Assembly: GCA_903899985.1 (NCBI GenBank)
Contig: CAIULL010000027.1
Location: forward strand, 1 to 60,837
DNA length: 60,837 nt
Reading direction: 5' to 3'
Source of the DNA: an uncultured Schlesneria sp.
GTDB taxonomy: Bacteria; Planctomycetota; Planctomycetia; Planctomycetales; Planctomycetaceae
Shown in pieces: positions 46,820 to 48,961 of this stretch. Positions within the stretch are counted from its first letter, which is position 1; each line of letters begins with the position of its first letter. The translations under genes were made by a program, and so were the position numbers. A model generated the notes under the pieces. That model was not told the DNA's origin and ran no database searches. It saw only the letters and a list, made by a program, of their open reading frames with translations.

Positions 46820-47206
46820 GTGAAGAAAGTTGTGTTTGTCTGCGTGGAAAACTCGAACCGAAGTCAGATGGCTGAAGCGTTTGCGCGCATACACGGGAAT
46901 GGGAAGGTCGAACCTTATAGTGCCGGGTCCCGTCCATCGGGCCGAGTCAACCCGAAAGCCATCGAAGCGATGCGCGAACTGGGATACGACCTGACGACTC
47001 ATACTTCCAAGGGGCTGGACGCCTTCAATGGGAACGAAGTCGAAGTGGCCATTACGATGGGGTGTGGAGACGAGTGTCCTCTTGTCATTGCGAAGCAGCG
47101 ATTGGACTGGCAGATACCAGACCCGCGCGACATGACGCCCGAACAGTTTCGCGAAGTGCGAAATCTGATTGAGTGCAAAGTGAAAGAATTAATCGCAACG
47201 CTGTAG
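46820..47206 (+). CDS. arsC: Arsenate reductase, thioredoxin-coupled LMW-PTP type
   Basis: A 128-residue protein of the low-molecular-weight tyrosine phosphatase fold. The active loop CVENSNRSQMAEAFA fits CX5R, with Cys near residue 8 and Arg at 14; the late DPRD fits the general acid Asp. The redox Cys pair expected in pI258-type ArsC corresponds to the Cys in MGCGDECP near 75-82. It would reduce arsenate to arsenite, or act as a phosphatase. The start was set by the ribosome site: AAAGGAGAT leaves eight bases to a GTG at 46820, but only two to the TTG at 46814. There is no ArsR or arsenite pump next to it. Confidence 0.85.
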   Translation: MKKVVFVCVENSNRSQMAEAFARIHGNGKVEPYSAGSRPSGRVNPKAIEAMRELGYDLTTHTSKGLDAFNGNEVEVAITMGCGDECPLVIAKQRLDWQIPDPRDMTPEQFREVRNLIECKVKELIATL

Positions 47207-47260
47207 CAGGCTGGCTGGTTGAAATTCTGACTTGATAAGTCAGTTCCGAGGATTTCTTCC

Positions 47261-47429
47261 AAAGTAGCCATCACCACTCCGCGTGATGAGCATTGTTCGA
47301 GAACCAGCCAAATACCAAACAGCATTTTTTCAAAGCCGAGATTTGAATAATGAATTTGTTCCGAAGCTAAGGCAACGATTGAATCGTTTCTGACACATGC
47401 TCATCACGCGGAGCGATGATGGCTACTTT
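47261..47429 (+). repeat. Left palindromic flank of the RAYT gene (169 bp)
   Basis: Starts AAAGTAGCCATC and ends GATGGCTACTTT; the 32-base termini are inverted copies with two mismatches. The interior holds smaller palindromes such as AACGATTGAATCGTT. It differs from the right copy at about a dozen of 169 positions. It ends 14 bases before the transposase ATG, so it may supply the promoter and regulate expression. Confidence 0.88.
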
Positions 47430-47443
47430 TCTAAGTGCATTCC

Positions 47444-48100
47444 ATGAGTGAGCTTCATTTCTTTGATCCACGTGCAGACGTCTCGGTGTTTGAACGACGG
47501 TTGCCACATTGGATGCAGGCCGGAGTTCTATGTTTCATCACATGGCGTACGAATGATTCCATTCCGCAAGAAGTGCTGGAGCGCTGGCAGCATGAGCGGC
47601 GTCAATGGCTAAGGCTTCATGGCATCAATCCGCTTGATGCGAACTGGAGACAACGACTTCAAGATCTGAGTCAGGAATCACGTGAAGAGTTTTTTGGTCA
47701 CTTTTCCAAACGCTGGCATGACGAACTGGATGCAGGCCACGGCGCATGCGTCCTTAAATCGCCGAATTTGTCGAAAATCGTCGCCGACAGCTTGCTTACG
47801 TTCGATGGAGATCGATACGACTTGACGGACTTCGTTGTCATGCCCAATCACGTTCAACTTTTAGCGGCGTTTCGCGACGAAGACTCGATGTTAGTTCAAT
47901 GCGAAAACTGGAAGCATTATCAAGCTGTTCAGATTAACCGTGTAATCGGCACATCGGGACGATTCTGGCAACAGGACGGCTTTGATCATCTCGTGAGATC
48001 AGAAGTACAGTTCAAGCATTTTCGACGCTACGTCGCGGACAATCCTCGGAAAGGCCGAGTATTACCCGCGAATTCTGTTGTATGGTCGAAAAAGATATGA
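47444..48100 (+). CDS. REP-associated tyrosine transposase (RAYT, Y1 HUH family)
   Basis: A 218-residue Y1-type transposase related to IS200 TnpA. Features are readable in order: an N-terminal FITWRTND strand, the metal-binding block FVVMPNHVQLLAAF (about residues 128-141), ENWKHYQAVQINRVIG, and FWQQDGFDHLVRSEVQFKHFRRYVADNP with the probable catalytic Tyr in RRYV. The HUH motif is HVQ: the second His is Gln. It has no partner TnpB. The ATG at 47444 follows a GTG three codons earlier. In related systems the protein cleaves single-stranded hairpin DNA of REP elements. Here the 169-bp flanking repeats are the natural candidates for substrate. Confidence 0.88.
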   Translation: MSELHFFDPRADVSVFERRLPHWMQAGVLCFITWRTNDSIPQEVLERWQHERRQWLRLHGINPLDANWRQRLQDLSQESREEFFGHFSKRWHDELDAGHGACVLKSPNLSKIVADSLLTFDGDRYDLTDFVVMPNHVQLLAAFRDEDSMLVQCENWKHYQAVQINRVIGTSGRFWQQDGFDHLVRSEVQFKHFRRYVADNPRKGRVLPANSVVWSKKI

Positions 48101-48119
48101 CAGCAAAAGCGGCGTGCCC

Positions 48120-48288
48120 AAAGTAGCCATCATCGCTCCGCGTGATGAGCACTGTTCGAGAACCAGCCAAATACCAAACAGCATGTTTTTAAAGCCAAGA
48201 TTTGAGTAATGGGTTTGTTCCAAAGCTAAGGCAACGATTGAATCATTTCCGACACATGCTCATCACGCGGAGCGATGATGGCTACTTT
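48120..48288 (+). repeat. Right palindromic flank of the RAYT gene (169 bp)
   Basis: A direct copy of the left flank, starting 19 bases after the transposase stop. Its 32-base terminal inverted repeats (48120-48151 and 48257-48288) are perfect. The terminal GTAG within AAAGTAGCC resembles the tetranucleotide that precedes REP hairpins. Same length as the left copy. Confidence 0.88.
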
Positions 48289-48337
48289 GTCGTCTTCGGA
48301 AAAGCAGTGGCTTCTTCGTCTGCCAGAGAAAAAAGAG

Positions 48338-48367
48338 CACTGCTTGACCGAAGACGGTCAAGCAGTG
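48338..48367. repeat. Convergent-gene hairpin repeat, copy 2
   Basis: A perfect 13-bp stem CACTGCTTGACCG/CGGTCAAGCAGTG with loop AAGA, followed by GCAC. It lies between the RAYT gene (+) and the membrane protein gene (-), 50 bases after the right RAYT repeat. Copies 1 and 3 are at 39058 and 54417. Confidence 0.78.
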
Positions 48368-48463
48368 GCACAATCTTTAGAAAATTGAAGATTCTCTGGA
48401 AGTTTTAAGCGATTCGCCGATTTGATCCGCAGACTGATGCTCGTGAAATGCTCACTAATTCTT

Positions 48464-48961
48464 TCACGCAGTCACTGCCGTTTCGATGGGGACTTCAGGC
48501 CGGGTCCTCGATCGAAATCTTTGATTGGCCGCCTGAAAGTAGAGAAAACATCCAGTCAAGATCGTCTCGATGACAGGAAGATCGATTTGAGTGACAATCG
48601 AAAAGCCGAGCCTTTGCCAGAGATAGCGTCGATGAAATTCGGACGCCGACGGCCACCAGGTGAAAAACTCGTAGGCAATAATTCCCACGATGCCGATCAG
48701 GCCAAATGAGATCAACAACGATCCGAGCAATCGTGTGGCACGCTCCCCAATCCAGTTTTGGATCAAGGCAGCAAGCGGAAGCAGTACGACCAGCCAGGAA
48801 AGATGGCAAGCCACCAGAGCCAACAGCGGCGGACCGCACCCCCAGGGGCCACAAATGCTGTGCCCCCAATCCGATCGCACCTGGCCGATTGACAGTGTTG
48901 CCAGGAAAACGAGTCCCCAAACCACGATTCCTGCAATAATCCTTAAGCCCGAAAGCGACAT
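48464..48961 (-). CDS. Hypothetical four-helix membrane protein
   Basis: A 165-residue protein with four hydrophobic segments (about residues 5-25, 45-68, 80-103, 125-145), so it is predicted to lie in the inner membrane. It is not recognised as a known family. A Cys/Pro/Gly-rich loop ICGPWGCGPP follows helix 1 at about residues 36-45 and would face the periplasm if the N-terminus is inside. Charged C-terminal end RFRSRTRPEVP. Hydrophobicity and length argue for a real gene, but nothing ties it to a process. The next gene upstream is another membrane-anchored hypothetical on the same strand. Confidence 0.6.
   Translation of the reverse strand: MSLSGLRIIAGIVVWGLVFLATLSIGQVRSDWGHSICGPWGCGPPLLALVACHLSWLVVLLPLAALIQNWIGERATRLLGSLLISFGLIGIVGIIAYEFFTWWPSASEFHRRYLWQRLGFSIVTQIDLPVIETILTGCFLYFQAANQRFRSRTRPEVPIETAVTA

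Follow-up and report, generated by a model that had tools for sequence, protein, structure and literature searches.

The RAYT (REP-associated tyrosine transposase-like) gene described here very probably belongs to a REPtron, in which the gene is flanked on either side by its own REPIN, repeated directly and mobilised in the manner of TnpA-REP. The window, that is, the whole stretch of DNA that was analysed, comprises 60,837 nucleotides of an uncultured Schlesneria sp. (contig CAIULL010000027.1). It contains a REPIN/RAYT system of a known kind with a variant architecture. The evidence consists of direct observations: the anatomy of the repeats, their family of copies, the conservation of their REP ends, their association with the RAYT gene and their presence or absence at orthologous sites.

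Both repeats are 169 nt long and lie on the + strand, the left REPIN at 47261-47429 and the right REPIN at 48120-48288. Each consists of two inverted 33-nt REPs (47261-47293 and 47397-47429 in the left copy; 48120-48152 and 48256-48288 in the right copy) flanking a 103-nt spacer, and can be folded as one hairpin. The REP at each end starts with AAAGTAG and continues into a small imperfect hairpin, which has a 3-nt loop in the right copy. Thus, each end carries a 5' GTAG followed by an imperfect palindrome. This is how a REP has been defined in print, a REPIN being an inverted REP doublet with a spacer (PMC6006769, PMC3116915); the REPIN was described in 2011 and called a miniature mobile DNA (PMC3116915).

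An earlier note on this DNA had described two direct repeats of 169 nt framing the gene and differing at about a dozen positions. We detected one direct repeat of 171 nt with 93% identity, and counted 12 differences over 169 nt. The similarity of the left and right flanks of the gene was far beyond chance (E=2e-59). The inverted termini noted before were recovered as 33 nt with 100% complementarity in the right copy, and as 33 nt with 94% complementarity and two mismatches in the left copy. The ATG (47444) does lie 14 bases past the left copy; the stop codon ends at 48100 and is followed by 19 bases and then by the right REPIN. Folding of the single-stranded DNA, which had been proposed as a check, gave z-scores of -10.0 for the right copy, -11.8 for its other strand and -9.6 for the left copy (one strand). 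None of 200 shuffles was as stable, either for the right copy (both strands) or for the left copy (one strand). The inner palindrome AACGATTGAATCGTT was found exactly in the left copy, whereas the right copy has AACGATTGAATCATT instead; the family consensus at this place differs from it and reads AACGCTTGAATCGTT.

The same note had regarded the repeat as unusually large and MITE-like. The first description takes the doublet for a single REP, and the second did not hold in the strict sense. The 33-nt end is the REP and the 169-nt unit a REP doublet; an oversized single REP was ruled out, each end being itself a GTAG REP. A MITE in that sense has terminal inverted repeats and a target duplication of constant length that a DDE enzyme produces; the ends found here are GTAG hairpins instead, and inspection by eye of 12 aligned sites gave no consistent target duplication.

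The RAYT gene is an open reading frame of 218 codons from the ATG (47444..48100, + strand). Two profile matches pointed to the RAYT identity claimed previously. NF047646, the NCBIfam model of REP-associated tyrosine transposases, matched the window protein with E=3e-11 and 43.4 bits, which is below its cut-off of 80 bits, and it matched all of 15 aligned sequences, the window one included. A profile built from these 15 sequences found one solved structure, TnpA-REP (PDB 4er8; E=5e-4), in a match that starts only at profile position 111. A Pfam search of the window RAYT gave no match. The tyrosine codon is at 48029-48031, in a Y..xNP context, and we take this residue to be the catalytic tyrosine. 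It was present in 104 of 107 aligned rows, the remaining three being unaligned there, and was invariant in the 15-sequence profile set.

The HUH motif of the window RAYT is not intact. At 47849-47857 the protein has HVQ where its relatives have HVH, the second histidine being replaced by glutamine (codon CAA, 47855-47857). We compared this position in the 107 rows, window included, which come to 98 once identical open reading frames are removed. Histidine was found in 95 of the 98 distinct sequences (104 of 107 with duplicates); the other three were the window, the only one with glutamine, L155 (arginine; 31% identity) and one unaligned sequence. The orthologue in genome G001, 94% identical to the window RAYT, has HVH. 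HUQ variants occur in other HUH enzymes. Given HVQ, the window RAYT may be inactive or weakened; the codon may also be a sequencing error. Comparison with the G001 orthologue yielded a dN/dS of 0.118 (14 non-synonymous and 29 synonymous changes), which indicates that the gene has been under constraint; the window copy is possibly impaired all the same. Judged by its sequence, the protein appears to be a RAYT by descent, and its activity as an enzyme is in doubt.

The earlier note had suggested that the repeats are themselves non-autonomous elements, and that they be searched for in this and related genomes. The 169-nt repeat was indeed found elsewhere without the gene, much as a non-autonomous element would be. 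REPIN matches were obtained in 10 of the 40 genomes searched, near-complete ones in the window genome (G000, a Schlesneria-like planctomycete) and its three congeners G001, G004 and G005, and weaker ones in 6 further genomes. G000 holds 15 near-complete copies (window pair included), 2 long partial copies and many fragments, which ruled out a repeat unique to the window locus. The copies are dispersed, yet 15 are few for a family of many dispersed copies; a REPIN can be the point at which a contig breaks, and counts taken from draft genomes may therefore be too low.

Over 68 near-complete copies from the four genomes, conservation was 0.985 and 0.985 in the two REPs and 0.848 in the spacer. 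The ends are thus more conserved than the spacer, as in a REPIN. Our sample comprised at least 88 REPIN copies (L219, a reverse self-match at 69.9%, was dropped from 89 rows); those of G001 and G005 were drawn from near-complete matches, and the G000 set consisted of the 17 best. Most sampled copies share one orientation after loci are reoriented to match, so a freely flipping REPIN was rejected.

A RAYT associated with its own REP was found in the window and in G001. A close RAYT was found in G000 and G001 only; the best match elsewhere was at most 59% identical. The earlier note had held that many copies without any link to RAYT genes would speak against a RAYT system. This pattern was seen in part: the linkage stands in G000 and G001, whereas the drafts G004 and G005 have many copies and a search of them for a close RAYT found none, with an assembly gap possible in G005. 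The sampled G005 copies were nevertheless the most uniform (mean pairwise identity 0.872). Use of the window repeat by all RAYTs of the genus was excluded, as only the G001 locus (L138) contained it among 26 RAYT loci inspected; L032, L139, L141 and L142 each come with their own palindromes. At L139 (G005:C154), a 230-nt REPIN pair lies at the RAYT (1269-1499 and 2170-2402). Among the best 40 candidates scored there was no other full-length copy of this 230-nt REPIN; its other matches were mostly REP ends, often in shorter doublets.

To compare occupied with empty orthologous loci, as had also been proposed, we aligned 12 sites, and at all 12 the REPIN was missing from at least one relative. 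Hence the repeat is not a fixed sequence present at the same place in all relatives, the other outcome that had been named as adverse. The 12 sites were selected from 30 queried for short spacing in a relative, and so demonstrate polymorphism and not its frequency. A repeat search of the stretches fetched for them found the REPIN only where expected (L305, L314). By spacing, the cleaner cases of absence were L013, L015, L212 and L221; at L005, L010, L017, L206, L217 and L229 the missing stretch was larger or rearranged. L010 is filled in G001 and L014 in G004, and further REPIN sites are common to two or three genomes. At L003, the REPIN unit is flanked by a duplication of ~23 nt (by eye). At L207, CTACTTT is all that remains in G004 (a single case, by eye); it is complementary to the AAAGTAG end and resembles the asymmetric excision remnants of SBW25, in which ~6 bp of conserved end are left (PMC3116915).

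These observations bear on the reading that the palindromes have a fixed structural or regulatory role (as terminators or RNA stability elements) and owe their spread to recombination and gene conversion, without the involvement of a transposase. The hairpins are strong and no active event was observed, both of which would suit such a role. The absence of the repeats from orthologous sites in congeners, their pairing with RAYT genes and their GTAG ends argue against it, and we regard it as very unlikely indeed.

Conservation often extends past 169 nt at a lower level (62 copies aligned with flanks), and the moving unit may therefore be larger than the REPIN. We named the flanking modules L1 and L2 on the left and R2 and R1 on the right. 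Among 79 copies with usable flanks (copies with short flanks were dropped), 49 had L2 on their left and 51 had R2 on their right; the outer arms L1 (left) and R1 (right) were recognised in 43 and 41, respectively, and 6 of the 79 carried an unrelated right-hand repeat. In the window, the block has reversed remnants of these arms at its two ends. The R2 hairpin was recognised on the - strand directly outside the left REPIN (47221..47260), and the L1 module on the - strand to the right of the right REPIN (48289..48371), with its CACTGCTTGACCG hairpin at 48338-48367.

A larger unit would be ~245 nt long (L2 hairpin-REPIN-R2 hairpin). Its target would have been an older palindromic element that is abundant (L1, GTGCCACTGC...GCAGTGGCAC), and another enzyme may have inserted it there, with the REPIN as a passenger. 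The frequency of L2 and R2 is consistent with this, and so is site L015, at which G001, G004 and G005 carry the L1-type element whereas in G000 an L1-like sequence is split by L2-REPIN-R2. The ~23-nt duplication at L003 flanks the unit, and several copies of a second REPIN family of G000 (family B) lie between the same arms as the window family (family A). On the other hand, the arms are far less conserved than the REP ends, no consistent target duplication accompanies the unit, and L178, L179, L231 and L235 show L1 and R1 without L2 and R2, while other copies sit in another repeat. Arm pairs lacking the REPIN were sought as precise empty sites; the two cases read (L242, L260) look like imprecise deletions, and a third (G004:C206) was weaker. 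We consider a larger moving unit possible, though on balance unlikely.

The L1-type element was also found alone (L265). At L265, L257 and L269 of G000, the element bounded by GTGCCACTGC and GCAGTGGCAC is ~100 nt long and has hairpins and no GTAG end. A query of joined arms returned 271-551 first-look candidates per genome in four genomes, of which the best 40 each were scored. Some REPINs (L212, L214, L234, L239) lie in a different repeat (TTGAATTCTTTGCGTCCTTGCGCC...); REPINs in differing repeats imply that landing is not confined to one element.

The shared arms of families A and B indicate that two REPIN families occupy one shared socket. G000 has a second RAYT-like gene (RAYT-B), 58% identical to the window RAYT, and each of the two is enclosed by its own REPIN pair. 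The pair around RAYT-B is bordered by an L1-L2 arm at one end and by an R2-like stretch at the opposite end.

We compared the window locus with the same locus in G001 and G004, using as anchors of orthology the left neighbour, an arsenate reductase/LMW phosphatase-like (arsC-like) gene (46820..47206, + strand), and the right neighbour, a gene for a small protein of 165 aa (48464..48961, - strand). In G004, synteny holds on both sides, save for ~1 kb of extra sequence further left, and the interval between the two neighbours contains a single REPIN and lacks the RAYT, an arrangement reminiscent of a solo LTR. A 117-bp element interrupts the left REP of this solo REPIN. The difference between G000 and G004 at the locus is thus the RAYT plus one REPIN. 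A test by eye for a chimera of two REPINs in the G004 copy gave a mixed result. The window REPINs are direct repeats, so recombination between them can delete the gene and would leave a solo REPIN; from the arrangement of the locus, gene loss of this kind fits G004. G000, G001 and G004 are nearly equidistant (0.872, 0.879 and 0.872 over 1948 sites), with informative sites split 14/9/8 of 847 among them, and a gain or a loss of the RAYT in G004 can therefore be read equally well.

In G001, the right-hand neighbour is followed by a full REPIN, then by a partial copy that has diverged, then by the RAYT and finally by a second full REPIN, and this whole block is oriented opposite to that neighbour. 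The last 74 nt of this contig (G001:C272), which lie within a further REPIN, are identical to the start of G001:C45, where a REPIN is followed by the arsC-like neighbour. The simplest reading of these sequences is a single locus in which the block would have been flipped by recombination between inverted REPs, with additional REPINs. The arsC-like gene of G001 (C45:227-611) is in two overlapping pieces, as from a frameshift or an assembly error.

The G001 locus also bears on whether the frame around the window RAYT is an artefact, a repeat duplicated in assembling a fragmented genome. The assembly of the window genome comprises 296 contigs, and REPINs can form contig ends in these genomes. Even so, the 94%-identical RAYT of G001 is likewise flanked by full REPINs (the left one farther off, with the diverged partial copy between), and an artefact is so improbable as to be negligible.

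The block might instead move as a composite, for instance in the form of a REPIN-RAYT circle, which would recombine with a resident REPIN or insert into it. RAYT plus one REPIN is what distinguishes G000 from G004; among the sampled G000 copies, the two window REPINs are each other's nearest (0.929, as against at most 0.834 for the rest); and direct frames are common in the clade (see below). Against this, G000 and G001 each have one such RAYT, beside the same neighbours, and G004 has none; the full REPINs flanking the G001 RAYT are not each other's nearest copies, since the left one most resembles other REPINs at its own locus and the nearest copy to the right one is a dispersed REPIN; and recombinational loss accounts for G004 equally. 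We hold movement of the composite to be quite improbable.

We then looked for direct frames around the RAYTs of the clade. Of 76 loci with at least 45% identity (L033 was omitted, being the same record as L138), 57 had flanks of at least ~290 bp on either side, and 55 of these were distinct. A direct repeat of at least 50 nt was shared by both flanks at 40 of the 55 distinct loci, or 42 of 57 with duplicates, window included. It was absent at the remaining 15. When flanks were swapped among the 57 loci as a control, such a repeat was found in 6 of 200 cases. By a loose test, all 42 framing repeats contain an inverted repeat, and 21 of them have GTAG close to their start together with CTAC close to their end.

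A broader and more tentative reading, which we think unlikely, is that of an LTR-like cassette in planctomycetes and their relatives. Two direct REPINs would frame the RAYT and collapse to a solo REPIN or flip by way of the inverted REPs, and the cassette would be the core of a shared, nested palindromic socket that takes the REPIN cores of different RAYT lineages. If this were true, the dispersed REPINs would in part be solo remnants of former RAYT cassettes.

The REP loops are themselves insertion targets. In G000, a 1.66-kb element (L168; G000:C46:544-2200) lies inside a REP loop between 5-nt duplications of CGGAG. It belongs to the IS1182 family by its match to NF033551 (E=1e-107; 361 bits against a cut-off of 270). 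In G004, the REP loop was interrupted in 16 of 30 sampled REPINs, in each case at the end motif shared by a family of IS1182-like elements and a 117-bp MITE with ends similar to those of the IS1182 element; the MITE was found in G004 copies such as L174, L189, L191 and L199. The corresponding 0 of 58 in the other genomes is no control, as those copies were sampled from near-complete ones, which exclude broken copies, and G000 does have a copy of this kind (C46). Of the inserts read, six, of 117-119 bp, were complete. Their duplications were CTCCG/CTCCG in two, CTCCG/TTCCG in two, and CGCAA/CGGAG and CGGAA/CGGAG in one each. At L174 (1387-1503, G004), the 117-bp MITE holds a GTAG...CTAC palindrome (GTAGCATGGGCTTCAGCCC ... 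GGGCTAAAGCCCACACTAC), which looks like another REPIN family. Insertion that breaks a REP is known from the REP-targeting IS elements of PMC1525189. That report names IS3, IS110, IS4, IS256 and IS5, in contrast to the IS1182-family element and the 117-bp MITE in the REP loop here. The insertions found here show REPIN hairpins to be landing pads for IS1182-type elements.

Mobilisation of REPINs by this RAYT lineage is most likely, by analogy with TnpA-REP (PMC8266576). The RAYT would recognise the GTAG tetranucleotide and the REP hairpin in single-stranded DNA, and its tyrosine would cut and rejoin the strand, so that copies of the REPIN are moved between sites; other palindromic repeats would be preferred or tolerated as landing sites. 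Some observations weigh against the REPtron as the best explanation. The ~23-nt duplication at L003 is not predicted by single-strand transposition. The window protein has a broken HUH motif, misses the NCBIfam cut-off and has no Pfam match. G005, with the most uniform copies sampled, yielded no close RAYT, and the direct frame is lacking at 15 of the 55 distinct relatives.

How RAYTs persist while REPINs spread is an open question, and prior work has mostly been done in proteobacteria, as far as the parts of the literature available indicate. A clade with many REPIN-framed RAYTs and a congener with a solo REPIN allows gain, loss and inversion of the gene to be read from alignments. GTAG repeats have been reported in the PVC superphylum, along with dimers inside longer palindromes in Anabaena variabilis and, in R. 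baltica, many tyrosine transposase genes with flanking repeats (PMC3733652). In the available part of that report we found neither the Schlesneria case nor the shared socket nor a solo-REPIN orthologue.

The REPINs and RAYTs of Pseudomonas fluorescens SBW25 and others (PMC3116915) share with the present system the inverted REP doublet that forms a hairpin, the conserved ends, the variable spacer, the dispersed copies and the association with a RAYT. The window REPIN is longer, 169 nt as compared with end motifs that start 71 bp apart in SBW25 group I (PMC3116915). Unlike those of SBW25, the REPINs described here are often nested in other palindromes and have few copies, and the RAYT is framed by direct full REPINs. 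The E. coli REPtron and its TnpA-REP (PMC6006769, PMC8266576) resemble the window system in the GTAG foot with an imperfect hairpin and in the Y1-type enzyme with its tyrosine, a likeness that includes the 4er8 profile match. The window protein differs from TnpA-REP in having HVQ and in matching 4er8 only from profile position 111, and the E. coli REPtron holds three REPINs from two REP types (PMC6006769, PMC8266576), unlike the window. RAYTs between two inverted REPs (Nunvar 2010, PMC2817692) likewise have REPs on both sides of the gene, and RAYTs meeting the criteria of that study were found, according to the part of it available, only in gammaproteobacteria. In contrast, each side of the gene described here carries a complete REP doublet, the two doublets are in direct orientation, and the arrangement occurs in planctomycetes and their relatives.
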